Shown in pieces: positions 3,151-24,971 of a stretch of DNA of 64,000 nucleotides. A model generated the notes under the pieces. The model searched no databases and had not been told where the DNA came from. It was given only the letters and a program-made list of their open reading frames with translations. The DNA is from Clostridia bacterium (GTDB lineage: Bacteria > Bacillota > Clostridia > Oscillospirales > Acutalibacteraceae), in the NCBI GenBank assembly GCA_017440965.1, contig JAFSGH010000018.1:29473-93472 (forward strand), in the 5' to 3' direction. Every line of letters starts with the position of its first letter. Position 1 is the first letter of the stretch. Position numbers and translations under genes: made by a program.

Positions 3151-3432
3151 TTACTTCTTTTTTATCTCATATCCGAGAGCGGTGATAAGCTTCAGAGTTT
3201 CAAGGGCAGTATTTCTGTCATATTCCTTTTCCTCCTCGCTCAGCTCCTCATAGGGAACAAGACAGGGAGTCATTTTCTTTTCATCGTCTCTTTTTTCACC
3301 GTAGACCCAACCGTCCTTTATTCTTCCCTGCGACCATACCTCGTGAACATTCTTTGCAATTTCTTCCTTAAGAGCCATAAGTTCCTCCGAAAGAACTACA
3401 TCTGATGTATCCAAGGGCTTGGGGATATACAT
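3151..3432 (-). CDS. Stand-alone RyR (ryanodine-receptor repeat) domain protein
   Basis: The 93 residues are almost exactly one RyR domain (the Pfam RyR family). It opens YIPKPLDTSDVVL, continues VHEVWSQGRIKDGWVYG and MTPCLVPYEELSEEEKEYD, and ends LKLITALGY. This is the hallmark order W..GR...GW.YG...K..PCLVPY. It has no signal peptide or membrane helix. The start follows AGGAGTGATA, 15 bases after the stop of the larger RyR protein, so the two are co-translated. RyR domains occur in bacteria, but I know of no settled function. A nucleotide- or ligand-sensing role is inference. A second, more divergent RyR domain sits in the preceding gene. Confidence 0.85.
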   Translation of the reverse strand: MYIPKPLDTSDVVLSEELMALKEEIAKNVHEVWSQGRIKDGWVYGEKRDDEKKMTPCLVPYEELSEEEKEYDRNTALETLKLITALGYEIKKK

Positions 3433-3447
3433 ATTATCACTCCTGTA

Positions 3448-5235
3448 TTAACCTATTGTACCAACCTTGCTGTCCTTTGCTTTATCCTCATCGCTTAAGA
3501 CCTCATAGGGCACAAGGTTATGATGCATTTTTCCGAGATTGTTACGGCTCTTTTTATCGGGTGAGCCGCTGTAAATATAACCCTCGCTCCGCATATAGGC
3601 ATTCCATCTGCGGTGCTCTAAATTCTCTATTGAAATTTTTTCCTCAGGGGTAAGCTCCTCATCCTTTTTTGACGCTCCCTGAATACCGCAGGCAATTCTT
3701 GCTCTTATATGAAGAGCCGCCGCAACAGATGAGCGGTAATTATATTCATAATTCCAGAATTCCTCCTCACTGCCCCACTTAAGGTGACGGCTGAGAGCCT
3801 CTTTTTCCAGCTTATTATGAAGAATACTGTCTGCAGAAAATGAGGTTTCGAGATCACCCGTAAAGCATATATCATAGGACTGACCGCTGTAGTTTTTAAG
3901 GCCGTCAAGCACCCTTTTCTGCTCACTTCCGTAAACGACAGCGTGAATAAAGGGCTTTATTCCCATTCTTTCAAACAAGGTTCTCAGCTCTACCGCAGTT
4001 TTGATATTAAGCTCATCATCGCCGAGACAGACCATTACATAAGTTATATTTCCTATTTCTCTGACCTTTTCATAAAAGCTTAAAGTACCGACATCAACAC
4101 CCGGATGGAGCTTTATGGTATAGCGTGCTTCACCGGGAATGCTTCTGCCGTTAAAGCTTTCGCTCATAAGCTCAGGAGCGGCAGCCTTGAATCTGTCCTC
4201 TGAAAGCTTATCCTTATCAAACGCATTTATTGTGACATTATAACCGTCCATCTGGCAAAACCAGGAAAGAGCCTTTACGGTCTCAGTACCGAGAGAGCCC
4301 ATACCGACAACAAGAGCAGAAACAAACCTTTCACCGTTTTCGCAGTCGATAGCTCTTTTGAACAGCTCCATTTCATTGTCATAAAGAATTCTGTTTACAA
4401 GGGATACGGTTTCGTTTATTCTTCTTACCTTGACCTTACCCTTTTCCGAGGCAGAAAGCAGTAATTCACTTTCTATTTTGGTGGACATCACATAGACATC
4501 CGTATTATCCCTGTCAGAAAATTCCTTTATAAGCTTCAGTCCCTGAACGGTATTGAGGTTTTCATCATCACTCATAAGTAAAAATGAGAGCCTTTTTTTA
4601 CGGGAATGTCTCTTGAAATTAACTGCAAGGATATCGTTTACAAAAAGAAGTGCACCTGCCTGCTTTGCTTCTTTTGCGAGCTCACCCTTCTTCATTTCCT
4701 CGTCAAAAACATCCGTAAAGATAATTACGGACTTTTTATCCTTTTCTCTTATGCTGCTTGCAAGGGCAAATGTCTTTTCATTCAATTGAGAGAAAACATA
4801 TGCGTCCTTGAAAAATCTTGCAAAATAGCCTGCATATGCATAGAGATTTTTCAAAAAGGATAACGCGAAGCTAACGGTACAAACGGGAGCTAAAAACTGC
4901 ACCAGAAGAAGTCCGCCGAGATACCAGTTAAAGATCTCTCCGGGAATTCTTCCCGAATAAGTCATAACATCGTCGAATATGGCATCTCCGCCGAAGACCT
5001 TGATTGCCTTTGCAAATGCCATTAGAACGGCAGATAAAGGATTTACCTTCTGCTCCTCATATAAGCATATGAAGGCGGGAGCACATAAAATGATAGTTGA
5101 AAAAAAGCAGTATGCCATAAAAACATGGGTAATTTTTATGGAATGCTCCCTGTTTTTGCTAAAAAAGAGATACAGAGAAACAGCGACAGCAACGAAGGAC
5201 ACTATCGCAAACAGTGAAAAACTTATATTCCACAT
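3448..5235 (-). CDS. Membrane protein with two RCK/TrkA-like Rossmann domains and C-terminal RyR domain
   Basis: This is a 595-residue protein. Three hydrophobic segments are visible near 3-25, 36-58 and 105-128. Residues about 145-290 begin AYVFSQLNEKTFALASSI, which resembles the first strand and helix of RCK/TrkA-N domains. A second Rossmann fold starts at FVSALVVGMGSLGTETVKAL, with GxGxxG at 311-316, and runs to about 440. Residues 535-590 carry a RyR-type domain: NLEHRRWNAYMRSEGY, then K569-MHHNLVPYEVL. This order suggests a membrane sensor that reads nucleotides such as NAD or ADP-ribose derivatives. No selectivity filter or pore helix is recognisable, so calling it a channel would be a guess. 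It starts 21 bases after the CARF nuclease stop. Confidence 0.8.
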   Translation of the reverse strand: MWNISFSLFAIVSFVAVAVSLYLFFSKNREHSIKITHVFMAYCFFSTIILCAPAFICLYEEQKVNPLSAVLMAFAKAIKVFGGDAIFDDVMTYSGRIPGEIFNWYLGGLLLVQFLAPVCTVSFALSFLKNLYAYAGYFARFFKDAYVFSQLNEKTFALASSIREKDKKSVIIFTDVFDEEMKKGELAKEAKQAGALLFVNDILAVNFKRHSRKKRLSFLLMSDDENLNTVQGLKLIKEFSDRDNTDVYVMSTKIESELLLSASEKGKVKVRRINETVSLVNRILYDNEMELFKRAIDCENGERFVSALVVGMGSLGTETVKALSWFCQMDGYNVTINAFDKDKLSEDRFKAAAPELMSESFNGRSIPGEARYTIKLHPGVDVGTLSFYEKVREIGNITYVMVCLGDDELNIKTAVELRTLFERMGIKPFIHAVVYGSEQKRVLDGLKNYSGQSYDICFTGDLETSFSADSILHNKLEKEALSRHLKWGSEEEFWNYEYNYRSSVAAALHIRARIACGIQGASKKDEELTPEEKISIENLEHRRWNAYMRSEGYIYSGSPDKKSRNNLGKMHHNLVPYEVLSDEDKAKDSKVGTIG

Positions 5236-5256
5236 AATTATTATTCTCCTTTTATT

Positions 5257-6465
5257 CTATTTCCATAAGTTATCAATTTTTTTTCTGAGAGAATCAATGC
5301 TCAGCTTGTCAACATCATCTATGACCTTTATACCCATATCGTTACATCTTACAAGCGCACCGCTTGAAAGATTGGATGCAGAGCTTGCTATAAGCACCTT
5401 CTTTGCATAGCCCTTACCGAATTTTTCGGCAACCGTATTCAGCTTATATACCTCCTCGGGGATAACCGCCCCGTTTTTGCAGGAAATAAAAATGGGCATA
5501 ACTCCGCGCATAAGCATTACATCTATCTCGTTTTCCGTATTAGGTCTGTCTGATGTAACAACGCCGTCCCAATCGATAAAAGCACCCGAAACAACATCGC
5601 AGTAAGCCGCATCTCCCTTGTCATCAACACTTTCAGAGGCAAGCATATATATAAGCAGCTCAAGAATCTTTCCCGATTTATCAAGACAGCTCCTGACCAA
5701 TTCATTCTTAAAGGTCACCTTAAAAGAAAACGAATCGTACTCATAACGGATAAGTCCTCTTTCAGCAAGAGCTCTCAGCAGCTTTCTGTCAGGCTGATGC
5801 TTTCTTGCACGGCTGAGGACCGAGGGAGATGAACGGATAACAAGACTGTTCTCATCCTCGTAGCTGTTTGCCGTAAGGTAGGCAAACACGCCGCTCTGCT
5901 CATTCCAGTTTTTCGGATCCTCTGAGCATATACGCCACATTTCCCTGATATCTTCCTTATCCTCTGCTCCAAGGGCGGCGCAGGACAGATCTGCCTCTGT
6001 ATGTCTTAAAACTCCTCCGTAAAGCTCAATATTTTCCTTTACGGATAAAAAGGGAAGTCCCTCTGCAATTATTTTTTCTCCGTCTCCGTCACAGTCTATT
6101 ATTCTGCTGTCCTTTATACTGTAACGGTGAAGCTGTATATTCTTTTCAGGAAATCTGCTGTAAACGATGCCTGCGGCAACAAGATACAATTCCTCGCCGC
6201 CCGTAAGATCAAAATACAGCTCATCATTCCCGTTTACTATTTCCGTAAGCCTTTCTATGATAGCATTGATATTATTTCTGAAGGCAACACATATCTCAAT
6301 AACTACATTCTGCCCTCTGTCGGAAAACATAGAGATATATTTTTTTCTGTGCTCCTCAAGGATATTTTTATCAGGTCCTACAAGATATATCTTTGAGGGA
6401 AGCTTTATAAGAGAAACGCAGATATTTTCTACGCTTGTTTTATCAAAAAATTCAACAAAAACCAT
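5257..6465 (-). CDS. CARF-domain nuclease, Card1/Can2-like (DUF1887 type)
   Basis: This is a 402-residue protein. Residues 1-150 look like a CARF Rossmann sensor, with the family signature DLTGG at 86-90 followed by a long helix. Residues about 190-260 resemble a winged helix. Residues 265-360 form a PD-(D/E)xK nuclease core: NEIDVMLMRGVMPIFISCKN gives E313, D315 and K330. In characterised Card1/Can2 enzymes, from memory, the residue two before the Lys is Glu; here it is Ser328, which may weaken or alter cleavage. The known relatives are type III CRISPR ancillary nucleases switched on by cyclic tetra-adenylate. No cas gene or CRISPR array is in this window. It starts after GGAGTGTATT, behind a terminator, so it may have its own promoter. 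Confidence 0.8.
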   Translation of the reverse strand: MVFVEFFDKTSVENICVSLIKLPSKIYLVGPDKNILEEHRKKYISMFSDRGQNVVIEICVAFRNNINAIIERLTEIVNGNDELYFDLTGGEELYLVAAGIVYSRFPEKNIQLHRYSIKDSRIIDCDGDGEKIIAEGLPFLSVKENIELYGGVLRHTEADLSCAALGAEDKEDIREMWRICSEDPKNWNEQSGVFAYLTANSYEDENSLVIRSSPSVLSRARKHQPDRKLLRALAERGLIRYEYDSFSFKVTFKNELVRSCLDKSGKILELLIYMLASESVDDKGDAAYCDVVSGAFIDWDGVVTSDRPNTENEIDVMLMRGVMPIFISCKNGAVIPEEVYKLNTVAEKFGKGYAKKVLIASSASNLSSGALVRCNDMGIKVIDDVDKLSIDSLRKKIDNLWK

Positions 6466-6546
6466 AATACACTCCGAGAAACTGCAGAGAAAAAAAGCAT
6501 CATACCCTCAGATCATACCCGGGAAAGCAAAATTCTCTGTTAATGA

Positions 6547-6587
6547 CAAAAACGGTCGGACGGAAAAATATATCCCTGTGCCGACCG
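6547..6587 (-). terminator. Terminator between the AAA ATPase and CARF nuclease genes
   Basis: On the minus strand CGGTCGG pairs with CCGACCG (6553-6559 and 6581-6587) and is followed by TTTTTG. It lies between two genes of the same cluster. It therefore probably separates the sigma/AAA transcript from the CARF/RyR transcript, or leaks to set their ratio. Confidence 0.75.
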
Positions 6588-6612
6588 CCTGTTCTTACTG
6601 TTTTTTTTATTA

Positions 6613-8691
6613 TCAGAAGCCGAGCTTAACCTTTTTTACTCCAACAAGCTTTGAGAAGAACTTGTCTGAGCTTGCGGCAATAAAGTCCTCTTTTGTAAGG
6701 AAGAATTCGGGACTCTTTTCATAGATCATTCTTCTGCTTGCCTTCGCACAGGTTCTCTCATACAGATTTCTTACAAATCTTGCATTGCTGAATTTCTTGT
6801 CGTTAAGAACCTCATCGGAAAGGCTGTCAAAGAATTTCTTTGCTTCTTCAAGTAAGCCTTCCTTGCAGGCAACGGATCTTGATACCATACCTGCAAATAT
6901 CTCATAAAGCTGTTCTCTCGTGTAATTGGGGAAATATATCTCATAAGGCATACGGCTTTCAAGACCTGAATTTCCCTTAAGAAGAGTCTTCATCTCATCG
7001 GGATAGCCTGCCATGATTACAACAAGATCGTTTCTGTGGTTTTCCATTTCCGTGATAAGAGTATCGAGAGCCTCCTTGCCGTAGTCCGCACTGCCGATAT
7101 GCTCGTCCCTGTAAAGAGAATAAGCCTCATCTATAAACAAAACAGAACCGTAGGCATCTCTGCACATTGCAGAGGTCTTGGGGGCTGTCTCGCCGACATA
7201 TTTTCCGCAGAAGGCTCTGCCGGGATACTCAAAGAAATAGCCGTTTCTGAGAATTCCGCGTTCTCTGAGAATATTTCCGAGAATTCTTGCAACCGTGGTC
7301 TTACCTGTACCGGGAGCACCGACAAATCTCATATGGAAGCACGGTGCTGCGATATCAAGCTTCTTATTGACCTCGATCTGAGCAATTATCTCCTCAACCG
7401 TATCTGCGATCTTTTCCATACCGACCATTTCTCTGAGAGCATCAAGTCCCTTGTCATCCTCATCGGTATTGTTTTCAATAAGACCTGCAAGATCCGCTTT
7501 TGTTATAAGTGTATTCATCTGACCGCTTTCTGCATCGCTGAGTTGCTTACGGTAGATCATATCAAACACTGTCTTCTCTACGGTCTTCATACCGTAGAAT
7601 CTGCCGTCACTCTTTTCCTCGATGATACGGCGTTCAAACTGCTCCCAGGCACCCTCATCGGCAGTATAAGAATATCTGCCGAGCTGCTGCTTTCCGCAAG
7701 CTATAATATCCTCCATATCAAGAGGCGGGAATCTGAGAGTTCTGATATAAAATCTGTCACAGAGATACTCCTTGACAGCTTCAAGGGAATCGTCCTCAAG
7801 GAAGGGAACTCTGAAAACAAAGATACATTTTTCTGCACCTTCCTCTGCAAGCTCAAGAGTTTTCTTGAAATATGTATTATTGAAATCTGAAGTCTCATTG
7901 CTGATATCCAAGCATATAAGCGTTGTGCCGGAAATATTCGCAGCATCCCTGAGCATCTTTTCGAAGGCCATAAAGAGATGAGGCTCGTGGGGAATAGTAT
8001 CCTCTATCACACGCACGGGGAATTTAGATTGAACGATACCGCATTCCTTTACTGCCTTTGCAAACAGTTCAAGATAAGTAGTGAGACCGTAGCCGTCATT
8101 TATGGAAAACAGGAAATTTCTTTCCATAAAGGGTCTGAAGGTCTTATTCTGCTTTACTGCGGGAGCTATCATCTTAAGCTCGTGGATAACTGCCTTGAAT
8201 TCATCAGCGGCGATAAGCTCATCCACTTCTTCAAAAACAGATCTTTCACAGCTGCTGTCTTCTGCTTCATTTTCTGTGTCTGCCTTGCCGTCACCCTTAC
8301 CGAGCATTCCGCCGAGGACCTCTTTGATGCCTGAGCTTTTTTTCGCGTCCTCAGAAGGCTTTTCTTCCTTTTCAGGAGCCTTTTTCTCTTCTGCGGGTGC
8401 TTCGGAAACGGGCTCCTTCTTTTCCTCGGTAAGTAAGTATTTTACCACCTCGGCATTCTTATCAATGGCCATTTTAGAAAAAAGAATGTCATCGACCTTT
8501 TTTCCGAACTCATCATAGGACATATCTGACTCAACAAGAATGATACATTCGCTGTGGGAGGATTTTACTATTTCGATCTTTGATCCGAATATTTCTTTTA
8601 TATAACCGATAAAAGCCTGAACAGGTAAAACTCTGTCGCTTCTCTTTGAAAGCACCCATTTACCTGAAAATGATAACTGTATCTTTTTCAT
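6613..8691 (-). CDS. AAA+ ATPase, CbbX/SpoVK type, with degenerate N-terminal ATPase module
   Basis: This is a 692-residue protein. The C-terminal AAA module (about 415-680) is intact: Walker A GAPGTGKT (458-465), pore region YVGETAPKT, Walker B VLFIDEA (517-523), sensor 1 VVIMAGYPDEM, arginine finger in GLESRMPY, and sensor 2 NARFVRN. This is the CbbX/SpoVK group, hexameric remodelling motors. Residues 195-400 look like a second, dead ATPase module with INDGYGLTT in place of Walker A. A charged, low-complexity Glu/Lys/Pro linker fills about 88-150. Its target is unknown. It begins 21 bases after the anti-sigma-like gene with AAGGAG. Confidence 0.85.
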   Translation of the reverse strand: MKKIQLSFSGKWVLSKRSDRVLPVQAFIGYIKEIFGSKIEIVKSSHSECIILVESDMSYDEFGKKVDDILFSKMAIDKNAEVVKYLLTEEKKEPVSEAPAEEKKAPEKEEKPSEDAKKSSGIKEVLGGMLGKGDGKADTENEAEDSSCERSVFEEVDELIAADEFKAVIHELKMIAPAVKQNKTFRPFMERNFLFSINDGYGLTTYLELFAKAVKECGIVQSKFPVRVIEDTIPHEPHLFMAFEKMLRDAANISGTTLICLDISNETSDFNNTYFKKTLELAEEGAEKCIFVFRVPFLEDDSLEAVKEYLCDRFYIRTLRFPPLDMEDIIACGKQQLGRYSYTADEGAWEQFERRIIEEKSDGRFYGMKTVEKTVFDMIYRKQLSDAESGQMNTLITKADLAGLIENNTDEDDKGLDALREMVGMEKIADTVEEIIAQIEVNKKLDIAAPCFHMRFVGAPGTGKTTVARILGNILRERGILRNGYFFEYPGRAFCGKYVGETAPKTSAMCRDAYGSVLFIDEAYSLYRDEHIGSADYGKEALDTLITEMENHRNDLVVIMAGYPDEMKTLLKGNSGLESRMPYEIYFPNYTREQLYEIFAGMVSRSVACKEGLLEEAKKFFDSLSDEVLNDKKFSNARFVRNLYERTCAKASRRMIYEKSPEFFLTKEDFIAASSDKFFSKLVGVKKVKLGF

Positions 8692-8712
8692 AATCTCTCT
8701 CCTTAAAAACTA

Positions 8713-8973
8713 TCAGAATAACGGATCTTGCAGTTCAGAGGAAGATACTCTTCCGTTGCTGTACCGTTCACTGACAAAGCTTCTGAAATCCGATGAAGTC
8801 TGCAATCTTTCAAACTCCTCCTGAATCAGCTGTATTGCATTTACAAGTTCAAAGCATTCCTTGCAAACAAGGATATGTGAATTGACACGGGCAATCAGAC
8901 TCAGAGTATTCTCATCTATATTATCCATAGTGACAAAATCAAGGATCTCATCTATTGTCAAATGTTCCGCCAT
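8713..8973 (-). CDS. Small zinc-finger anti-sigma-like protein (ZAS type)
   Basis: This is an 86-residue soluble protein containing SHILVCKECFELV, i.e. H-x3-C-x2-C, the ligand pattern of zinc-binding anti-sigma domains. Its start overlaps the end of the sigma-factor gene by 16 bases and has AGGAGG in front, so translation is coupled. This is the usual arrangement for a sigma/anti-sigma pair. There is no membrane helix, so any signal must come from the cytoplasm, for instance from the AAA or ClpP partners encoded around it. The anti-sigma role is inferred from motif and position. Confidence 0.65.
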   Translation of the reverse strand: MAEHLTIDEILDFVTMDNIDENTLSLIARVNSHILVCKECFELVNAIQLIQEEFERLQTSSDFRSFVSERYSNGRVSSSELQDPLF

Positions 8974-9776
8974 TTCAGTAACCTCCTGATCTTATTGTCA
9001 AGTCTGTTTACCCAATCGCTGACCGACTTATCTGCACCCTTTGCCATAAAAAATTCAGAATATACAACATCACCGTATACTCTTTTGCTGTCATAGGGCT
9101 CGTTAAGTGCTCTGAGCAGTATCTCTTTTTCAAGCTTACCGAAAGAAAGCCACGGTATTTTTTCGGAATATAAAACACAAACGGAATACATATCATAAAG
9201 CGTTAGTTCATCAGGGCTTGCAAGAAGCTTATTCTTTGCTTCTATTCTTGTCATATCATCCTCAATAACATATAAGGACTGAACTAACCAGGTAAGAATC
9301 TTATATATATTTATATTTTTCGAAAAAATTACTATTCTGAAAGCATTTTGCAAGGTATTGATCACTTCATCAGGGGCAGCTATTTCCTCATATACATCGG
9401 GAAGCTCAGGGGCATAATTTCCGTTAATATCTTCCTTGCCGTATAAACGCTTGATCTGTTCTATTCTTGAAAGTATCACATTACGGGCAACCGTATAAAG
9501 CCATCTTACAAAATGCTCTGCATCACGGTTTATCTTACCCTCAGGTCCGTCTTTCAGCAAAAAACGGGTGACAACATACTGATAGACTCTTATGCGGATA
9601 TTCTGCATGATCTCGTCATCAGAGGAATATTTACTTAACCAGTGGCTGCCGCTGACCTTACCGTGAACATATCGTTTAAGCTCCTTTTCTACAATAGAAA
9701 AGAGCCTGTTATAATCAGGCGAATCCGAAATAAGATCATCAACCATCCTATTGAATTCCTGCTCGGTAAACTTCAT
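8958..9776 (-). CDS. Divergent sigma-70-like (ECF-type) sigma factor
   Basis: This is a 272-residue protein. Residues about 45-115 fit sigma region 2: SSDDEIMQNIRIRVYQYVV, then FVRWLYTVARNVILSRIEQI, matching the DExxQxxxxxxxxY and WLxxxARNxxxxxxR pattern. The C-terminal 60 residues (VSDWVNRLDNKIRRLLK) could be a worn region 4 helix-turn-helix. The middle, about 120 residues, is longer than in common ECF factors. The ATG at 9776 has AAGGGGAG six bases upstream, whereas the earlier in-frame starts have no free ribosome site. It has its own sigma-A promoter (9816-9844). It may control this cluster, but no second promoter class is obvious. Confidence 0.7.
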   Translation of the reverse strand: MKFTEQEFNRMVDDLISDSPDYNRLFSIVEKELKRYVHGKVSGSHWLSKYSSDDEIMQNIRIRVYQYVVTRFLLKDGPEGKINRDAEHFVRWLYTVARNVILSRIEQIKRLYGKEDINGNYAPELPDVYEEIAAPDEVINTLQNAFRIVIFSKNINIYKILTWLVQSLYVIEDDMTRIEAKNKLLASPDELTLYDMYSVCVLYSEKIPWLSFGKLEKEILLRALNEPYDSKRVYGDVVYSEFFMAKGADKSVSDWVNRLDNKIRRLLKWRNI

Positions 9777-9815
9777 CTGCATCTCCCCTTGTCTGCGGAT
9801 AGTCATATCTTTTTT

Positions 9816-9844
9816 ATTCTATCATCTTTGTCGATTTCCGTCAA
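9816..9844 (-). promoter_or_regulatory. Sigma-A promoter of the sigma factor gene
   Basis: On the minus strand TTGACG (9844-9839), a 17-base spacer and TAGAAT (9821-9816) lie about 40 bases before the start codon. Confidence 0.75.
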
Positions 9845-10147
9845 CAAAAGAACACAAAAAAACAGGAAAAACGCAGTGTATATCATACAGACTGACTTAT
9901 ATTTATATAAAGGTCTGCTTTGCCGGAAAAATCCGGAAAAAGCTTGGTTTAATGAGAGAGAAATATTTAAACCTGCGTACCTTATCGTAAAAACTGTTTT
10001 CTCCGTACGCCTTCGGCTGCCATTTTCACAAAGCCCCGAAACGGGAAGCTTTCTTCCCGTTCCGGGAAAATGCACAGGCTAACGCAGCCGAAGGCAAAAG
10101 AAAGCTTTATTCAGGCATTCAATATACGCTTGCCTGAAAAACTGTTC
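9845..10147. repeat. Intergenic region with nested palindromic repeat
   Basis: This gap separates the two halves of the cluster. It has a long nested inverted repeat: GCCTTCGGCTGC (10009-10020) pairs with GCAGCCGAAGGC (10084-10095), and CATTTTC pairs with GAAAATG. The core GGGAAGCTTTCTTCCCGTTC (10043-10062) is itself a hairpin. The core recurs at 48944-48963 with 18 of 20 bases identical, so it belongs to a dispersed family. A minus-strand ORF here (9803-10075) crosses the hairpins and looks spurious. The repeat may act as a terminator or attenuator for the ClpP half. Confidence 0.65.
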
Positions 10148-11794
10148 TTATTGCGGTATTTCATATCTGTACTTCGGATCGGAGAAAACCACCTTATTAC
10201 TTGACAGCTCCGATTTTTTGCCGCAGGGGGCAAATTCAGGACAGTTATAGCTTCTTTCGATACGCGACCACAAAACATTTTCACGCATCTGAGTTATTAT
10301 ACATTCACCGGGAGCAATATGGTTCAGAGCACTTACGGGAACAAGAGCAACCGTGTCCTTATCATAGGACACTATGCTTTCACCCTTACCGTTGAGCGCC
10401 GATATGGGAGAAATAACCGTCTTATGCCCGCATTCTTCGGAAAAATCCCTTTTGGTCTGCGGATTGTTTGTTCCGAAGAATATATGAACATTCAGATTAT
10501 CCTTGATTATATCAGCCGTCTCTCTGCCGTAGACATTATTAAGCTGAGCATAGGACTGCAGGATCAGCAAAAACCAGATATTTCTGCCGCCGCAGGCTGA
10601 AATGACCTTATCAAAATCCTCAAAACGGGGAAGATTGCCGAATTCATCAAGAAGGAAATAAAAGGGTGTGTCGAGCTTTGAATTTTTCTTTCTTGCAACG
10701 CCTATAAGTGCAGTATAAAGGTCACTGAGAAAAAGGCTTATTATCTCATAATGCAGGCTTTCTTCATCCTTATAAGACAAAAATATTACCGTAGGTCTGT
10801 CACCCTCATCCAGAGTCTCAAAGTCGATGGTGTTCGTGCAGGTAACTCTTCTGATGCTTATATCTCTGAATTTGCTGATTGCCGCCGCGAAGGATGAGCT
10901 GATGCAAAGCCTTGTGTTTTTTGCCTGCTCAAGAATACATTTGCCGGCAAGCTGATATGCCTTTGACTGATGACTTCTGTTTGTGAAAAAGCCCTTATCG
11001 TAGACATCGCTTACAGAATCGCTGAAGGAGTCAAAGATCCTCAGGACCGTATCAAAGGAAAAGTTATCCTCTGTTATATCTCCGTCGTAACCACTGTCCT
11101 CAAGCATACCGAGAAGTATTGCGTGAAGTAAGTCTCTTGCAGAGCAGTCCCAGAAGGGATCCTTTGTGGCAGGAGATACGGGAACGACCATATTGCATAA
11201 GGAAGTAAGATCCTTTTCTGCTTCATCAAGGCAGGCTGTCTTATATTCCCTTATTGCTGCCTCAGCATCATCATAGCTGTCATATTCTGTGCCGTTGAAT
11301 TCAAAAAACTTTTTAAGTCCCCTTTTTCTTGTAATAAGCTCAGGAACATCAAATTGCTTCTGATATTCCCTGAAGATCTTTGTCAGCGGATTCCAGCAGT
11401 CACTTACGGAATAATTCGTAAAGTCAAGAAGCTTTATGTCATAGCCCTCTTGTCTGAATTGCTCTGCATAATTACTGTAAAGCTCCTGCTTCGGATCGCT
11501 TATGACAAGATTCGGCTTATTTTTCTTCTTCATCAGAATATTAAGCGTCGGAATTACATATCCCGTGGTCTTACCGCTTCTTGTAGCACCGATAGCAAGC
11601 ACATGGCTGTCGGGAATGAAGGTCACATCCAACTTTCCCGACTTATCCTTTGTTACACAGATGGGAATTCCGTCTATTTCCTTTTTGCAGATATCCTCAA
11701 ATCTGTAGGTGGCATCCTTATGCCTGAGTCTGTATTCCTCTACAGTGTCAAGTTTTGCATTTTCATAATCTTTGAACAATTCTATCTTATGCAT
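10148..11794 (-). CDS. VirD4/TraG-like coupling-protein ATPase lacking membrane helices
   Basis: This 548-residue protein has the TraG/VirD4 motor signature. Walker A GATRSGKT is at 69-76, ISDPKQELY at 99-106, CWNPLTKIF, then Walker B FYFLLDEFGNLPRFEDF (378-394) and LQSYAQLNNVYG. These are the conserved coupling-protein motifs in order. The usual N-terminal transmembrane pair is absent; the sequence starts directly before the ATPase fold. No relaxase, VirB4 or pilus gene is nearby, so it is probably not a conjugation coupling protein today. It overlaps the preceding gene by 8 bases and has AGGAGG, so it is co-translated with the ClpP half of the cluster. Confidence 0.85.
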   Translation of the reverse strand: MHKIELFKDYENAKLDTVEEYRLRHKDATYRFEDICKKEIDGIPICVTKDKSGKLDVTFIPDSHVLAIGATRSGKTTGYVIPTLNILMKKKNKPNLVISDPKQELYSNYAEQFRQEGYDIKLLDFTNYSVSDCWNPLTKIFREYQKQFDVPELITRKRGLKKFFEFNGTEYDSYDDAEAAIREYKTACLDEAEKDLTSLCNMVVPVSPATKDPFWDCSARDLLHAILLGMLEDSGYDGDITEDNFSFDTVLRIFDSFSDSVSDVYDKGFFTNRSHQSKAYQLAGKCILEQAKNTRLCISSSFAAAISKFRDISIRRVTCTNTIDFETLDEGDRPTVIFLSYKDEESLHYEIISLFLSDLYTALIGVARKKNSKLDTPFYFLLDEFGNLPRFEDFDKVISACGGRNIWFLLILQSYAQLNNVYGRETADIIKDNLNVHIFFGTNNPQTKRDFSEECGHKTVISPISALNGKGESIVSYDKDTVALVPVSALNHIAPGECIITQMRENVLWSRIERSYNCPEFAPCGKKSELSSNKVVFSDPKYRYEIPQ

Positions 11795-13442
11795 AAATAT
11801 CGCCTCCTACATATCCGAATCCGTTTTTGGAATTTACAATATTCTGTTCTTTACATACTGTCTTTATGTCATCCTTATCGATTTCCGATGACTTACCGAA
11901 AAGAGCATTTTTAAGCACTCCGTCAATAATTCTCTGAAGCTTTACTGTATCAAAGCAGAGTAGATAATCTGCTCCCTCTTCCGTCATTTCAACTCCGATA
12001 TTGCCGAATGCCTCTTTTCTTCTGGCAAAAAGTGCCTTTATAACAGTCTTTTTTTCCTGAAGCGAAAGCCTTTCGGAATATACGGTATCGCATTCGGGAG
12101 CTATATCCGTTATATCGGCATCTCTGCCCTGAGCAATAAGAACAAAAACGACCTCTGAAAGATCGAGGGAAACACAAGGTGATGCAAGAGGGAATTTTTT
12201 GCGGTAGCTGTAATCTAAAAGATTGTGAAGGTCATCAAGCATCGCACCCTCAAGCTCCTCACAATTTTTAATAATGAAGACCGTGCGTACTGTTTTTGTT
12301 TCGCTGAGCTTTCTGAGAATTATATTATCTCTGTCGGGAGCCAGGTCATTATGATTAAGTGTTCCCGCATCTATCAGCACATTCGGTGTCTCCCCGAGAG
12401 CCCTTGTCAGCATATCACAGAACATATCTGTAAGAAAGCTGTCCGATGTAACCACAAGAAGAGGAGAGCATATCTCTGCAGGACCGCGTTTTGAGAGCAT
12501 AAGATTCTGCAGTATTTTTTTGACCTGACTGTCTCTTTTCAAGGGCAGATCTTCAGCAACGGACACATCTATTTCAAATTTTCCGTGGAGCTCACTGTCA
12601 AAGGGAATACCGTAGCAGGCATCGAGCCGGCTTTTTGAATTACTGTTCAGAAGCAGTTTCTTCTTATCATCGTTTGAGATTATCTGAGAAAATGCCACCT
12701 TTGCAAAATTACGGTCGTAAACATTTCTCTTGATTATACCCTGACCGAAGGCTTTTTCAAGAATACCCGCTACCGAATCCTTTTCAGGCACGGCTTCATA
12801 AGCGCCGGTCTTACATATGTGTGTGAAGAGTCCTTTTCTGTTTTCGTTATTGAGGATAGTAAAAAGTCTGTCATAGTAGCATTTTTTATTCTCACTGTCA
12901 TAGGCAATACCCATAAGAAGTCCAAAGATACAGTTCCATTTTGCACAAAGGCGAAGTCTTTTTATTGCGGACTCATTGTCGCAAAACATACATATTCCGT
13001 TATATTCCATAAAGGCAAGTATGCCTATAGCATCTATATTCCCGTTCATGGCGGCATTAAGAAGATCTGTATACACATCCTCTTCCGTAAGTGCCATATC
13101 ATCACCGAGAATCTCCTGCTTTACACTGAGAGCAGCTCTTTTCTGAGAGAGTATCATTCTTTCCTCTGCATTAAGCGTTGTATCCTGACCGCTCTTTTCA
13201 CCGAATTCCAATAACCGGCAGAAGCGTTCATAGGATGAAATATCTGCAATGCTTCTGAAATGTTCCTCTTCCGTTTCCGTAAAGAGCTTTTTCAATTTCT
13301 GATTTTCGGGAATGCAATAAATTCTTGCAAGCTCGGAAAATGCTTTTTTACGCTCCTTCTCGTCAAGAAATCTGCCTGCCGTTGAATCAAGCAAGAAATA
13401 TTCAGCAAGAAACATCTGTGTAAGATAATCAAAAACTTCCAT
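11787..13442 (-). CDS. Protein with degenerate Clp/Lon-like ATPase module, ClpP neighbour
   Basis: I do not recognise this 551-residue protein as a named family. The N-terminal half is helical, with Sel1/TPR-like stretches around 110-190 (LNAAMNGNIDAIGILAFME). From about 320, LVVTSDSFLTDMFCDMLTRA and TVFIIKNCEELEGAMLDDLH resemble an AAA fold with the P-loop lost and a weak Walker B. RLSLQEKKTVIKALF and YLLCFDTVKLQRIIDGVL resemble the Clp/Lon lid. It overlaps clpP by 14 bases and has AGGAGG, which makes a ClpP adaptor or unfoldase-like partner the leading idea. With no Walker A it may not hydrolyse ATP by itself. Confidence 0.55.
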   Translation of the reverse strand: MEVFDYLTQMFLAEYFLLDSTAGRFLDEKERKKAFSELARIYCIPENQKLKKLFTETEEEHFRSIADISSYERFCRLLEFGEKSGQDTTLNAEERMILSQKRAALSVKQEILGDDMALTEEDVYTDLLNAAMNGNIDAIGILAFMEYNGICMFCDNESAIKRLRLCAKWNCIFGLLMGIAYDSENKKCYYDRLFTILNNENRKGLFTHICKTGAYEAVPEKDSVAGILEKAFGQGIIKRNVYDRNFAKVAFSQIISNDDKKKLLLNSNSKSRLDACYGIPFDSELHGKFEIDVSVAEDLPLKRDSQVKKILQNLMLSKRGPAEICSPLLVVTSDSFLTDMFCDMLTRALGETPNVLIDAGTLNHNDLAPDRDNIILRKLSETKTVRTVFIIKNCEELEGAMLDDLHNLLDYSYRKKFPLASPCVSLDLSEVVFVLIAQGRDADITDIAPECDTVYSERLSLQEKKTVIKALFARRKEAFGNIGVEMTEEGADYLLCFDTVKLQRIIDGVLKNALFGKSSEIDKDDIKTVCKEQNIVNSKNGFGYVGGDIYA

Positions 13443-14043
13443 AAGCTGTGCCTCCTATAGCTTTGATTTTTTTAGGCATCAGAATGCTGTCTATAAGTCC
13501 GTATTTCAACGCCTCCGATGCTGTCATTGTGTTGTCTCTGTCAGTATCCTTTGCGATACATTCCACTGTTTTTCCCGTATTCATGGCAAGGATGGAATTA
13601 AGCTTACTTCTTGTCTCCTCAATATGCCTTGCCGCAAGAATGATATCGGATGCCTGTCCCTGCGCACCGCCCAGGGGCTGATGGATAAGGATCTCGCTGT
13701 TGGGAAGTGCAAGCCGCATTCCCTTGGAGCCCGAGGAAAGGAGAAATGCTCCCATTGACGCCGCAAGACCTACGCAAATAGTTCTGACCTCACATTCAAG
13801 TGAATTAATAGTATCATAAATAGCAAGTCCGTCCGTGACACTTCCGCCGGGACTGTTGATAAGTATTGTGAGAACTCTTTCTGCCTCAGGGATATTGTCT
13901 TCAATCATTTTCTGTTCTGCAAAATGCATCTGAGGAATTATTCTTGCCGCCATGCCTGTTTCTATAGGCCCGAATATGTAGATCTGGTTTTTGCTTAACA
14001 AATACTGCTCCGACAAGACCTCTTTCATAATATCTTTTGACAT
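13429..14043 (-). CDS. clpP-like: ClpP-family serine peptidase
   Basis: This is a 204-residue protein of normal ClpP length. The catalytic Ser lies in GLAASMGAFLL, the His in EILIHQPLGGAQGQA and the Asp in KDTDRDNTMTASEAL, so the triad is complete. The oligomerisation helix region is also present. The ATG at 14043 has AAAGGAAG at a good distance; a GTG nine bases upstream does not. It heads the minus-strand cluster and overlaps the next gene, and no clpX or tig neighbour is present. It is therefore probably a specialised paralogue serving this cluster rather than the housekeeping ClpP. Confidence 0.9.
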   Translation of the reverse strand: MSKDIMKEVLSEQYLLSKNQIYIFGPIETGMAARIIPQMHFAEQKMIEDNIPEAERVLTILINSPGGSVTDGLAIYDTINSLECEVRTICVGLAASMGAFLLSSGSKGMRLALPNSEILIHQPLGGAQGQASDIILAARHIEETRSKLNSILAMNTGKTVECIAKDTDRDNTMTASEALKYGLIDSILMPKKIKAIGGTAYGSF

Positions 14044-14157
14044 ATATGTCACTTCCTTTCTCTTTTTTCATCCAATAAAACAGTCCTACTGTGTTTTTTT
14101 CGCAGAAAAAAATTTATTTTCAGAAAACTTACCAAAAAAACATTTAGCCGCTTTATA

Positions 14158-15333: not shown

Positions 15334-17580
15334 ATGATTCTTAAAGCTTTTATTACATTATTTAAGCCTTTTTTAATTCTTATCACATCTTTTGCAACCC
15401 TGATTTTCGGCTATGCATCATTCCTTGATGCCGATATTCTTGATACATTTTTTAACTGCTACCCTGTTTCGGCTCCTGCCGTTGAAAGTAACTGGAAAAA
15501 CACAGATAAAACTGTCCCCGAGGGTGATTTTTATGTAAGCACCAAGGGCTCGGATGAAAATAACGGCACAAAAGAAAGCCCCTTTGCCACAATAGAAAAG
15601 GCAATGGAGGCTGTAAGAAGCTATGACAAAAACCAAAAAACAGGTATCACTGTCTGCATTGAGGCCGGAGAATACAGAGTAAGCTCTCTCTCCTTCACTT
15701 CTTCAGACGGCGGAACTGCCGCCTGTCCCGTAACATACATAGGCTTTGGTGAGGGTGAAGTCATAATCAACGGCGGACTGAATATTTCTGCCGAGGATTT
15801 CAGCACATCCGATAAATATCCGTATATTTCTTCAAGACTCTCCGTTTCTGCAGACAAGGTGCTCGTAGCTGACCTAACAAAAGAGCCCTACAGTCTTTCT
15901 CAGCAGGATTGGGGCAAGCTTTATCCCATAGGAACATATAATACCGCTTCATCCTATAAGGGTGATACAACAGGCCCTATGTACTGTGAGCTCTTTGTAA
16001 ATGATGAAAGACAGACGCTTGCAAGATATCCCGATGAAGGCTTTATCTATACGGAAAAGGTATTGGCTACCGGTATAGATGATCCCATTCCCGATGAAAA
16101 CGGAGATCCCGCAACAGATACTTACCATATATCCCGTGAGCTTGCTTCAAAAATAGCAGGCTGGGAAAATCCTGAAGAGGTATGGATGTACGGCTACTGG
16201 AAATATGACTGGGCAGATGGCTCGTCCCCCATCGGCGAGTTCAATGAAGCAGAATGTACCCTCTCGCCCGAATACAGAAGCTATTACGGTACTAAAGAGG
16301 ATGCACCCTATTATTTCTACAACTGCCTTGAGGAGCTGACCGCACCGGGTGAATGGTATCTTGACAGAGAAAACGGTCTTCTTTGTGTCTATGCACCCGA
16401 AAATGAAGCCGCTGCAAAATATAGCTTATCTCTCAGCCTTTCCCCCGTGATCACCGTTAATGCAGATAATCTGGCTCTTAAAAATCTCACCGTGAAGGGT
16501 TCAAGAAGCAACGGCATCGAAATAAACGGAAGCAATAATACCGTAGAAAGCTGCAGAGTAATAAATGTAGCTTATACTGCAATTACCGTTAACGGCTCAG
16601 GCAATAAAATAATTCATAATGAAGCAGCCTATCTCGGCGGCGGCGGTATCTCACTCAGCGGCGGCGACACTGCAACACTTACACCGTCAGGCAATATAGC
16701 AGATAACAATCTTATCCATAACTGGGGCGAGGTATACCGTACATATCAGTTTGGTGTGGCACTCAACGGTACCGGCAATATCTGCTCTCACAATGAAATG
16801 TACAATGCTCCTCACGGTGCCGTGACCTACAGCGGAAATAACAATATGATCGAATATAATCTCATATATAATGTATGCCTTCTTTCAGACGATGCAGGTG
16901 CTGTGTATGCAGGAAGAAGCTGGACCTCATACGGAAACACAGTAAGATATAACTGTATACATTCCTTAGGCTCAGACGGGCACACTCCTGACGGAATATA
17001 CCTTGATGACGCTCTTTCGGGACAGAATGTTTACGGAAACCTTCTTGTGAACATTCCGAAATATGCAATTCATGCAGGCGGCGGCAGAGACAACAATATT
17101 CAGAACAATATCATTGTCAATGCAGGGGATCAGGCTATAAAGTATGATGACAGAGCCCGTGACGGTGCTCTCAATAACGGTTGGTTCAACGAGCATGTCA
17201 ATAAAGACAGCGGAGATATGTGGAAGGACCTTTATGCATCTCCCTATAAGAGTGAGATATGGCAGGAGGCATTCCCTCAGTATAAGGATTTCTCCGATGA
17301 TTTCTCAGACGGCGATAACCCCGGCTTTGTTCCTAATCCCGCAAACAGCATTGTCACAGGCAATGTTATCGTTGACCGTTCTGCGGCAGTCGGTGATTTT
17401 GCCGATGCTGTAAAAAAATTCAGCACGGTGGAAAACAACGACAACTACTCCCTTTTCCACACAGACCTCATATTCACCTGTGCAGATAAGGGTGATTACT
17501 CTCTCAGAAAATGCTCACCCGTATACAAAAATCTTCCCGACTTTAAGGACATCCCTCTTGATGAAATAGGAAGAAGATAA
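15334..17580 (+). CDS. Secreted right-handed beta-helix glycosidase/lyase-like protein (GH141-like)
   Basis: This is a 748-residue protein with a hydrophobic N-terminal signal/anchor (about 5-30). FYVSTKGSDENNGTKESPFA, followed by TIEKAMEAVR, is the usual opening of extracellular parallel beta-helix enzymes. Rungs rich in Asn then run from about 380 to 640 (NGIEINGSNNTVESCRVIN and repeats). An inserted beta-domain carries PGEWYLDRENGLLCVYAP, seen in GH141-type fucosidases/xylanases and relatives. I judge plant polysaccharide hydrolysis likely, but subfamily and substrate are uncertain. AAGGAG precedes the start. Confidence 0.65.
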   Translation: MILKAFITLFKPFLILITSFATLIFGYASFLDADILDTFFNCYPVSAPAVESNWKNTDKTVPEGDFYVSTKGSDENNGTKESPFATIEKAMEAVRSYDKNQKTGITVCIEAGEYRVSSLSFTSSDGGTAACPVTYIGFGEGEVIINGGLNISAEDFSTSDKYPYISSRLSVSADKVLVADLTKEPYSLSQQDWGKLYPIGTYNTASSYKGDTTGPMYCELFVNDERQTLARYPDEGFIYTEKVLATGIDDPIPDENGDPATDTYHISRELASKIAGWENPEEVWMYGYWKYDWADGSSPIGEFNEAECTLSPEYRSYYGTKEDAPYYFYNCLEELTAPGEWYLDRENGLLCVYAPENEAAAKYSLSLSLSPVITVNADNLALKNLTVKGSRSNGIEINGSNNTVESCRVINVAYTAITVNGSGNKIIHNEAAYLGGGGISLSGGDTATLTPSGNIADNNLIHNWGEVYRTYQFGVALNGTGNICSHNEMYNAPHGAVTYSGNNNMIEYNLIYNVCLLSDDAGAVYAGRSWTSYGNTVRYNCIHSLGSDGHTPDGIYLDDALSGQNVYGNLLVNIPKYAIHAGGGRDNNIQNNIIVNAGDQAIKYDDRARDGALNNGWFNEHVNKDSGDMWKDLYASPYKSEIWQEAFPQYKDFSDDFSDGDNPGFVPNPANSIVTGNVIVDRSAAVGDFADAVKKFSTVENNDNYSLFHTDLIFTCADKGDYSLRKCSPVYKNLPDFKDIPLDEIGRR

Positions 17581-17589
17581 AAATTTCCG

Positions 17590-17621
17590 CAGACTGCAGA
17601 GACTCCTGCAGTCTGTTTTTT
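17590..17621 (+). terminator. Terminator after the beta-helix gene
   Basis: CAGACTGCAG/CTGCAGTCTG form a 10-base stem (17590-17615) followed by TTTTTTC, ten bases after the stop codon. Confidence 0.9.
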
Positions 17622-17675
17622 CTTACGGCAGCCTTACATTATAAAAGATTGAACGAAAAATCTCTCTCAGACAAT

Positions 17676-17704
17676 TTGACATATCCGGGCTTATTTCTTA
17701 TAAT
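17676..17704 (+). promoter_or_regulatory. Perfect consensus sigma-A promoter
   Basis: TTGACA (17676-17681), exactly 17 bases, then TATAAT (17699-17704), about 35 bases before the histidine phosphatase start. Such a perfect match implies strong constitutive transcription. Confidence 0.9.
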
Positions 17705-17738
17705 AGTTATATTAATACTTTTAAAAGGAAGCAGCATT

Positions 17739-18440
17739 ATGGGAAAAAGCACACTCGTTCTTGAGCTTGAAATATATCTTATCCGCCACGGTCAGAGCAA
17801 TGCAAATGCAGGAATAAAGGTAAGAGAAGTACCGACTGTTAAGGATCTTGCTGATCCCGTGCTTTCGGAGCACGGAATATATCAGGCAGGTCTTCTCGGA
17901 GATCATCTTTCCGACATTCAGTTTGATGCAGTATATTCAAGTGCACTTTTAAGAGCAGAGAGAACTGCAACAGAAATCATCAACCGACAGAAGATAAGAC
18001 AGCCTCTGAGACTTCTTCCGCTTCTCACGGAAAACGGTATGGGCGAGGAATACAAGGGAGCACCTATGGAGGAAATACTCAGCATCAATCCCGATGCCGT
18101 ATTGGCACCCGATCTTCCCGAAAATACCCCTCTTATGTGCTATTCAGATAAAAATGATAATGAGGCACATTTTGAGAGAGCAAAAAAAACCGTAGAATAC
18201 CTGAGAGAGCATCATAAGCCGGGCGAAAAACTCTGTGTTGTTTCTCATGCGGCTTTTATCACTCATATAATATTCTACCTTATGAACTTAAGAGAGCTTC
18301 CTCTCTTTGATATCAATTTTACAAACACAGGTGTTACAAGGATACTTTTCTATAAGCCCGGCACAAACCCCTACGGAGATATAATTTTTGACTACATAAA
18401 CGATACCTCCCACCTGCCGAAAAACGCAGATACAAAATAA
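17739..18440 (+). CDS. Histidine phosphatase (phosphoglycerate mutase superfamily)
   Basis: This is a 233-residue protein. The catalytic LIRHGQSNANAG motif lies about 15 residues in; VYSSALLRAERTA, the acid ENGMGEEYKG and the second His in VVSHAAFITHII complete the fold. The family removes phosphate from small molecules or proteins through a phosphohistidine. The start at 17739 has AAAGGAAG and lies just downstream of the consensus promoter; the longer reading frame from 17649 would overlap that promoter. The gene stands alone and its substrate is unknown. Confidence 0.85.
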   Translation: MGKSTLVLELEIYLIRHGQSNANAGIKVREVPTVKDLADPVLSEHGIYQAGLLGDHLSDIQFDAVYSSALLRAERTATEIINRQKIRQPLRLLPLLTENGMGEEYKGAPMEEILSINPDAVLAPDLPENTPLMCYSDKNDNEAHFERAKKTVEYLREHHKPGEKLCVVSHAAFITHIIFYLMNLRELPLFDINFTNTGVTRILFYKPGTNPYGDIIFDYINDTSHLPKNADTK

Positions 18441-18510
18441 TATGCATCATCTGCTTTCCCCGGAGACGGGCATATGCTATTTCTTTACAGCAAAGATTAT
18501 TCTTCAAAAA

Positions 18511-24027: not shown

Positions 24028-24753
24028 TTACAGCATCCTTTCAAAAAACTCGGAAAGAGATGCTCTTATTACAAATTCAGCCTTGTCGTCATATGGAGTT
24101 GGAGAAAGATTAACTATTATCAGGTGCTTTCCCGAAAAATCTTCAACAAAGCCTGCCGCGGGAAATACCTTCAGCGATGTACCGCCCACTATCATAAGAT
24201 CGGACATATCGACGTGTTTTTTTGCAGAATAGAGAGAAAAGCCGTCAAGACTTTCTTCATAAAGCGTCACATCCGGTCTCAAAACTGAGCCGCAGGACGG
24301 ACAGCGTGGAATGCCGACACCTTTATTGATCAACTCTTCAGGATATGCTTTTTTGCAGCCCATACAGTAACACGAGGAGGTGGTTCCGTGAAGCTCAATA
24401 ACATTTCTGCTTCCTGCCGCCTGATGAAGTCCGTCGATATTCTGAGTAATTACAGCCTTGATGACACCCATAGCCTCAAGCTCTGCCAACGCCAGGTGTG
24501 TTTTATTGGGTTTTGCATCCGGGAAAACCATATTTTTTCTGTAGAAATCAAAGAATTTTTCAGGCTCCTTCATAAGGCAGGTGCGGCTGAGATAATACTC
24601 ATTCGAGGCATCCTTATAAAGACCGTCCGAGCTTCTGAAATCGGGAATTCCGCTTTCGGTGGATACTCCCGCACCGCCGAAGAACACAGCGTGCTCTGCC
24701 GAATAAAGAAGCTCCTTTATTCTTTCTGAATGCTTTAATTCAATTTCTGTCAT
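24028..24753 (-). CDS. cobB: Sir2-family NAD-dependent protein deacylase
   Basis: This is a 241-residue protein with the complete sirtuin set: GAGVSTESGIPDFRS (NAD site), TQNIDGLHQAAG, catalytic His in VIELHGTTSS, zinc ligands CxxC twice (CMGC and CPSC), GTSLKVFPAAGF and a final IVNLSPTPYD. It removes acetyl or other acyl groups from lysines using NAD. The start at 24753 has GGCGGTG in front; the alternative GTG at 24762 does not. It is a single gene with no clear operon partner. Confidence 0.92.
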   Translation of the reverse strand: MTEIELKHSERIKELLYSAEHAVFFGGAGVSTESGIPDFRSSDGLYKDASNEYYLSRTCLMKEPEKFFDFYRKNMVFPDAKPNKTHLALAELEAMGVIKAVITQNIDGLHQAAGSRNVIELHGTTSSCYCMGCKKAYPEELINKGVGIPRCPSCGSVLRPDVTLYEESLDGFSLYSAKKHVDMSDLMIVGGTSLKVFPAAGFVEDFSGKHLIIVNLSPTPYDDKAEFVIRASLSEFFERML

Positions 24754-24971
24754 ATTTTTCACCGCCGTAAAAAAATTAATAATATTATATCTGTAAAATC
24801 AGAATAAATCAACTCCTGCAAGGCAGTCAGCAAAAGACCTTGGCGCTAAATACAAATCCCGCCTCTGCAAAAAGAAGCGGGATATCTGCTTACAGCGTAT
24901 TTACATGTTCCTGCATAAAGGGAAGATTCATTATTTCATTCACGAGAGCCATCAGAAACAAACAGATACAA

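Follow-up and report, generated by a model that had tools for sequence, protein, structure and literature searches.

In the Calp system (CalpL-CalpT-CalpS), a signal-dependent protease cleaves an anti-sigma factor and frees a sigma factor, as set out in the sections of two reports drawn on here (PMC11229360 and PMC12751052). A similar company of genes, in which a sigma factor, an anti-sigma factor, a protease and likely nucleotide sensors stand together, is found in a 64,000-nucleotide stretch of a Clostridia bacterium genome (contig JAFSGH010000018.1), which we call the window. Its positions 14043 down to 3151 carry nine genes on the minus strand, the strand of all window features described below. 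They encode ClpP, a P-loop-less AAA+-like protein (ATPx), an anchorless VirD4/TraG ATPase (VirD4), a sigma-2-domain protein (Sig), a zinc anti-sigma-like protein (anti-Sig), a CbbX/SpoVK-type AAA ATPase (AAA), a CARF nuclease (CARF), and two RyR proteins (RyRm and RyRs). A sequence-only reading had named these gene families, and that observation is confirmed. Because its parts recur together in other gut bacteria, the set looks less like a chance grouping than like a real response to stress or viruses that has so far gone undescribed.

Compared with Calp, the locus has no SAVED-Lon protein (neither Lon nor SAVED was matched among the nine proteins in Pfam, NCBIfam, or PADLOC), no Csm1-type Cas10 was matched in its 86%-complete genome, its protease is ClpP or, in sister loci, an AAA/M41 enzyme, and its sensors would be separate CARF and RyR proteins. 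By analogy, the system appears to be like Calp in its working, yet it is not Calp. The CARF protein has the CARF-PD(D/E)xK architecture of Can2 and Card1, but its family carries SxK instead of ExK, and its neighbors are Sig, RyR, and protease genes. The match of Sig to region 2 of extracytoplasmic function (ECF) sigma factors and the adjacent HxxxCxxC protein recall the SigW/RsiW type of pair, in which RsiW is the zinc anti-sigma partner of SigW; unlike that type, the C-terminal part of Sig has no detectable region 4 and anti-Sig has no transmembrane segment. ClpP itself is canonical, with intact active-site stretches as in ClpXP and ClpCP, but its neighbors are ATPx and a VirD4-type ATPase rather than ClpX or ClpC, and this ATPase differs from the coupling proteins of type IV secretion systems in lacking the N-terminal membrane anchor. 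Thoeris and the phage RyDEP proteins are approached through the RyR family, its ligand residues, and the TIR genes present in many RyR loci (counted below). In contrast to those systems, the window RyR proteins are cellular, RyRm is fused to transmembrane and TrkA_N-like parts, RyRs has T at the phosphate-histidine site, and no TIR gene adjoins the cassette. The sequence-only reading had known of no described system with this set, and none appeared in the open-licence literature that we searched, most subscription papers lying outside it. Older comparative genomics has dealt with nucleotide-centered conflict systems and may already have described some of the RyR or CARF contexts.

We tentatively read the locus as a CRISPR-independent response to nucleotide signals, in which Sig would be freed by proteolysis of the anti-sigma factor and CARF and RyRm would serve as its sensors or its effectors. 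The main reason for proposing it is that an ATP-dependent protease repeatedly pairs with the sigma/anti-sigma genes and likely nucleotide sensors. In the resting state, a housekeeping promoter would supply Sig, which the zinc anti-Sig would hold. Stress or infection would raise a nucleotide signal, of the ADP-ribose type and probably TIR-made for RyR and of the oligonucleotide type for CARF, to be bound by RyRm at the membrane and by the CARF nuclease. An ATP-dependent protease, built of ClpP with ATPx and the soluble VirD4-type motor and/or the CbbX-type AAA, would then destroy anti-Sig; in sister loci, an AAA/AAA/M41 protease may take ClpP's role. Freed Sig would redirect transcription, while the CARF nuclease would cut nucleic acid and RyRm would act at the membrane. 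What the sequences show directly is the genes with their domains and key residues, the linkages that recur, and the separate promoter-like site of Sig; we infer the ligands, the protease assembly, anti-Sig as the substrate, the regulon, and the anti-phage role. Removal of the anti-sigma factor by ClpP, amplification of expression by Sig, and an anti-phage function had also been supposed by the sequence-only reading. A precedent for ClpP is the degradation of the anti-sigma factor RseA by ClpC1P2, as given in the part of that report used here (PMC11173970).

The pairing of protease and sigma factor is visible in other genomes. A scan of genome contigs gave three relatives of ATPx, in L097 (metagenome-assembled genome SIG658), L098 (metagenome-assembled genome SIG630; corresponding to G179:C52), and L099 (RGIG7332; corresponding to G037:C26), and the ClpP-ATPx-VirD4 triple is intact in each. 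All four genomes found with the triple also hold Sig. In L097, the triple is followed by a gene for a 177-residue protein and then by Sig, anti-Sig, and CARF; six of the nine genes are present, on one strand and with their order kept. Among 394 genomes of the order, the Sig profile matched in 32, and in nine of these the match is both strong and full-length. With L097 added, the nine make ten Sig loci; the middling matches of G227 and G206 were left out, as were 21 that are weak (E 1e-3 to 2e-6, mostly unannotated frames of 168-241 residues). Their partners are CARF and the CbbX-type AAA (four loci each), RyRm (three), the ClpP triple and an AAA/AAA/M41 protein (two each), and a PCTIR gene (one, L068; the same gene in L130 is cut by the contig end). 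An ATP-dependent protease stands in four of the ten, as the ClpP triple in G000 and L097 and as AAA/M41 in G037 and G575.

The second protease type combines an M41 protease domain with two AAA domains, as judged from Pfam matches of L020 and a family alignment of four, and measures 997-1172 residues where complete (L132:11680-15096, L020:2744-6118, L025:8925-12443, L071:3272-6265, and L069:3-1694). It lies near Sig/anti-Sig in L132 and L071, near CARF in L071 and L069, and near RyR in L132, L025, and L151. Four neighbor pairs, CARF-M41, Sig-CARF, Sig-RyRm, and CARF-RyRs, are repeated among the loci.

ATPx was found in three, Sig in six, and CARF in 22 of 197 genomes of the order, the window's own included. 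Co-occurrence was counted in the 196 genomes other than the window's own, the samples being taken as identical by matching handles. With relatedness and assembly breaks uncorrected, both ATPx genomes have Sig (P 5e-4), CARF is present in four of five Sig genomes (P 5e-4) and in five of seven genomes with a full-length lone RyR (P 2e-4), and such a RyR occurs in two of the five Sig genomes (P 0.01). The linkage supposed by the sequence-only reading finds support in the six ordered genes of L097 and in the return of Sig/anti-Sig with the same partner families. As to whether relatives keep the genes linked and in order, the outcome is mixed: L097 does so for six of them, RyRm stands without the other modules in the examined stretches of G056, G028, G007, and G024, and in G179 and G037 the Sig unit is on another contig than the ClpP triple.

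Within the window, the block is probably divided into three transcription units, ClpP-ATPx-VirD4, Sig-antiSig-AAA, and CARF-RyRm-RyRs, because there are gaps between them, Sig has a promoter-like site of its own, and AAA is followed by a hairpin with a U run. The promoter-like site is of the sigma-A type (TTGACG-17-TAGAAT with TG before the -10; 9816..9844) and ends 40 bases upstream of the Sig start. Comparable sites precede Sig elsewhere, namely TTGACT-17-TAGAAT in L097 and TTGAC...TGATA in L066 and L068. A portion of the gap that follows VirD4 has a good fold (z -3.2). The terminator-like hairpin, followed by U5, lies between AAA and CARF at 6548..6589 and is weak: the fold of the whole gap is not significant (z -1.16), and one scan did not pick it up. 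We dropped a single nine-gene operon since the gaps and the Sig promoter speak against it, and the single cassette of the sequence-only reading gives way to three likely units whose modules are also found apart.

Such a division would also be expected if the locus were an island of separate modules (ClpP/ATPx/VirD4, Sig/anti-Sig/AAA, and CARF/RyR), co-located by gene collecting and each working alone. This explanation, which we consider unlikely, accommodates the promoter-like site and the gaps, the occurrence of RyRm, CARF, and AAA each without the others, and the fact that in G179 and G037 Sig is not on the contig of the ClpP triple. In these two genomes the triple and Sig may still be close, since Sig lies within 0.5 kb of a contig end. 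Full-length RyRm was found in five of 59 genomes, the window's own and G056, G028, G007, and G024; the examined stretches of the latter four hold no Sig, CARF, CbbX-type AAA, or ClpP triple, and G056 has a lone RyR gene. What separate modules do not account for is the ordered run of six genes in L097, the presence of Sig in four of four genomes with the ClpP triple, and the recurrence of the four neighbor pairs.

The relay as we tentatively read it turns on Sig and anti-Sig. Sig (8958..9776, 272 residues) is given here with a corrected start, M11 of the original frame at 9776, which has a AAGGGGAG ribosome-binding site in front and is the point at which the homologues begin. The family profile matches region 2 of SigW (E 6e-4) and SigL (E 9e-4). 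A fold search with Sig gave nothing usable, and no Sig was found in viral contigs or phages at the sensitivity of those scans. The anti-Sig protein (8713..8973, 86 residues) has an HxxxCxxC motif that is invariant in five of five aligned sequences, shows no transmembrane segment by hydropathy, and is encoded next to Sig in all ten loci. The CbbX/SpoVK-type AAA (6613..8691, 692 residues) has an N-terminal extension, and its Walker A and B residues are invariant in nine of nine sequences.

Several other arrangements were seen around these genes. An AAA relative, a YbjN-like gene, and a ClpP stand in one row in a G155 locus (L082:7956-11135), and a YbjN-like gene (a weak match) also follows AAA in L068. 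A PCTIR-type TIR gene and a nucleoside hydrolase gene lie directly upstream of Sig-antiSig-AAA in L068:11017-13210 and L130:3-1147, the TIR gene of L130 being truncated. In L067:6085-11162 and L131:9103-14377, Sig/anti-Sig stand beside homologous large proteins without sensors, which in L067 are a lysozyme/Ig/dockerin protein and a Cadherin-like protein; this is perhaps a different use of the same switch.

The RyR proteins bear on the nature of the signal. In the part of the report used here, phage RyR proteins bind or cut 2'/3' cyclic ADP-ribose (cADPR), TIR-made signals, by means of H, W, H, and D residues; one such protein cut the signals, and six of eight further homologues bound them without cutting (PMC13232231). 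RyRm (3448..5235, 595 residues) has about three transmembrane segments, a TrkA_N-like part (Pfam E 0.013), and a C-terminal RyR domain (E 0.055), both matches being below the cut-off. It keeps all four ligand-type residues, H541, W544, H571, and D588, as assigned by spacing to those of the phage protein. RyRs (3151..3432, 93 residues) is a single RyR domain (PF02026, E 7e-37), and its profile matches 3NRT (E 1e-44). By the same spacing it keeps H30, W33, and D72, with T55 in the place of the phosphate histidine (H100 in the phage protein). Of nine lone cellular RyR proteins, eight have T, namely that of the window and the seven whose identity to it is 60% or more, and the ninth (L143, 48%) has H. 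On viral contigs, we found 220 relatives of RyRs; H occupies the phosphate position in 79 of the 80 copies examined (L204-L283), and the H-bearing set includes seven near-full-length copies 57-72% identical to RyRs. Judging from its residues, RyRs is probably a partner or regulator and not a signal hydrolase, since it is without the phosphate histidine that phage RyR proteins keep. RyRm was not found in plasmids or viral contigs at the sensitivity of those scans. A RyRm relative covering 92% of the query lies on an unannotated gut contig with an unverified phage label (L135, MT835673.1, positions 16368-18458). Giant proteins of 1823-1930 residues occur near RyRm or Sig (L021:5735-11434, L070:1857-7328, and L150:2042-7834), and both of those scanned (L021 and L070) have a transglutaminase-like domain.

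The count of TIR genes covered 63 loci, each 4000 bases or longer. Three of these duplicate the window, and two (L069 and L070) overlap; 73 shorter loci among L001-L169, twelve of them collected for TIR itself, were left out. TIR genes are present in nine of 23 RyR loci versus one of 37 other loci (P 4e-4) and, after removal of the four loci that seeded the TIR model, in five of 19 RyR loci (P 0.014). The sole TIR locus without RyR is L068, whose PCTIR gene was missed by the TIR model and added by hand. The TIR-bearing RyR loci are L145:9796-11805, where TIR and RyR are fused in one protein, L144:4351-11945, where two TIR genes precede a double RyR protein, L142:9560-15193, L147, L148, L149, L030, L021, and L151. 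L021 and L148 have the TIR gene some 2 kb off, and the remaining loci have it adjacent, as a fusion, or within the same run. The nucleotide sensing suggested by the sequence-only reading gains strength from these TIR genes and from the part of the phage RyR report used here (PMC13232231). Among the nine cassette proteins, none gave a SIR2 or SLOG match in Pfam, NCBIfam, or PADLOC.

The second putative sensor, the CARF-PD(D/E)xK nuclease (5257..6465, 402 residues), matches PADLOC CARF4 (E 2e-25); its family profile matches Can2, and the L097 relative matches Card1_endonuc. The motif reads SCK in all 13 members of the family and ECK in Can2 and VC1899. Some restriction enzymes with SxK are active by means of a displaced acidic residue, so loss of nuclease activity is not to be assumed. 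No CRISPR was seen. A Csm1-type Cas10 was not matched in the window's genome (86% complete; TIGR02578 was the one model used), and among 13 carrier genomes this model gave no match over the cut-off and weak partial matches in four. The SMODS cyclase (PF18144, the one cyclase family searched) likewise had no match in any of the 13, including the incomplete genome of the window.

A response without any part in defense has also to be weighed. ClpP might release an ECF-like sigma factor as part of an endogenous protein-quality or envelope-stress response, with CARF and RyR sensing the turnover of nicotinamide adenine dinucleotide (NAD) or RNA. The RseA precedent fits this account, as do the ordinary genes that flank the cassette and the Sig locus of G126 with its lysozyme/Ig/dockerin protein. 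We nevertheless judge it improbable in view of the patchy spread of ATPx (3/197) and Sig (6/197) in the order, the defense-type character of the CARF-PDDEXK and TIR neighbors, and the 220 viral relatives of RyRs. The flank was examined by a Pfam scan of ten window genes, genes beyond 25 kb being left out, which gave a glycosyltransferase, a phosphoesterase, DUF2804, a beta-helix protein, a histidine phosphatase, AIM24, GH16, MFS, SIR2, and one gene without a match. The SIR2-family gene (24028-24762) is 10 kb from the cassette and probably unrelated to it.

In our tentative reading the protease would be drawn from the ClpP triple. ClpP (13429..14043, 204 residues; Pfam CLP_protease, E 9e-62) starts at the ATG at 14043, its open reading frame opening at a GTG at 14052. 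The stretches around Ser, His, and Asp of the catalytic triad are intact, and the alignment with Staphylococcus aureus ClpP spans all three. The protein is 70-84% identical to ClpP of the three other triple loci and 53% identical to that of L082. The pseudo-AAA+ protein ATPx (11787..13442, 551 residues) has a helical N-terminus, no Walker A motif, and an AAA+-type lid near the C-terminus; its predicted structure is a poor model, and its profile matches neither the AAA/M41 proteases nor RyRm. In 348 genomes of the phylum, the window's own gave the only full-length ATPx match, six weak short ones (E 1e-4 to 5e-4) not being counted, and none was found in viral contigs or plasmids at the sensitivity of those scans. 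ATPx ends in a conserved FGYxGGxY, and we rejected the idea that this motif is a tail for docking to ClpP; its window codons contain the ribosome site of VirD4, TAGGAGGCG, and hence its conservation need not reflect protein function. VirD4 (10148..11794, 548 residues) has intact Walker A (GATRSGKTT) and Walker B (LLDEFGNLP) motifs. By hydropathy, neither it nor its three homologues have a membrane anchor, no 19-residue stretch reaching 1.6.

That the VirD4 gene is the coupling protein of a decayed conjugative element, with the remainder swept along, is very improbable: its score of 237 bits against the CD1115-like signature NF045973 (below the cut-off of 250) and the PcfJ-like gene two genes after VirD4 in the G037 triple (L065:239-1828, a match at the cut-off) would suit such an origin, but the anchor is missing in four of four, a scan of ten genes that flank the cassette in the window and of nine flank genes in L097 gave no relaxase or type IV secretion family, VirD4 (52-63%) and ClpP (70-84%) are conserved in a fixed triple, and ATPx was not found in plasmids.

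A possible ECF-type promoter, TGCGAAAA-N14-TGTT (14079..14104), lies 61 nucleotides before ClpP, and a motif of this type also precedes ClpP in L097 and L098 and Sig in L066 and L070. In 1.18 Mb of collected loci, TGCGAAAA-N13-15-YGTT has nine hits versus a shuffled mean of 1.5, seven of them upstream of ClpP triples or Sig-like genes; three of the seven defined the motif, and two (L133 and L134) belong to distant Sig matches from one genus. The motif is lacking before ClpP of L099 and before Sig of the window, L067, L068, L071, L097, L131, and L132.

A number of observations weigh against the proposed nucleotide-signal response. The full set and order of nine genes was not found again in the genomes searched, the ClpP triple and the Sig unit being on different contigs in G179 and G037. 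Two Sig loci, G126 and G753, have none of the partners, and the Sig neighbors in G126 are a lysozyme/Ig/dockerin protein and a Cadherin-like protein. Region 4 of Sig gave no profile match, and the structure model of Sig is poor (predicted local distance difference test, 50). No phage or plasmid context was seen, nine of the ten flank genes scanned belonging to ordinary enzyme, transporter, or uncharacterized families. Genome-wide, TGCGAAAA-N13-15-YGTT is not enriched, with 10 hits in the window's genome versus 4 in a reversed control, 59 versus 48 in eight carriers, and 45 versus 39 in 12 other genomes; a Sig regulon defined by it was rejected, the motif is kept as a lead, and no Sig promoter is established. 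On the sensor side, the CARF active site deviates in all 13 members, and in the part of the phage RyR report used here cleavage of the signal was limited to one protein, and two of the eight homologues failed to bind (PMC13232231). The window cassette has no TIR gene. TIR_2 is common, with 50 matches in 11 of 13 carriers, only two of these 50 lying in an examined RyR cluster (G056:C62), and the neighborhoods of the four TIR_2 genes of the window's genome gave no match to custom hidden Markov models of RyR, CARF, anti-Sig, or M41. From these counts and those of the RyR loci, RyR is often with TIR, and TIR is mostly without RyR.

A fuller scheme, to which we assign a low probability, would make of the locus a two-signal, CRISPR-free immune relay. 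RyR would read TIR-made cADPR-type signals and CARF a second signal, and a new kind of ATP-dependent protease, in which a dead AAA+ adaptor would pass substrate from a soluble VirD4-family hexamer to ClpP, would destroy anti-Sig and turn on a dedicated immune regulon. The RyR fold would then serve on both sides, the H-bearing phage proteins sequestering or cutting the signal and the cellular RyRs carrying T.

If the proposed nucleotide-signal response is true, it would extend the CalpL principle, in which a nucleotide signal leads to proteolysis and release of a sigma factor, beyond CRISPR. The ClpP/pseudo-AAA+/soluble-VirD4 triple, kept in each of the four genomes that were found to have it, would represent a protease complex of a new kind. 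Bacterial RyR domains would then have work to do inside cells, as receptors for TIR-made signals or as regulators of them, and would mirror the RyR evasion proteins that were reported from phages in 2026; this might also bear on how the animal ryanodine-receptor repeat arose.

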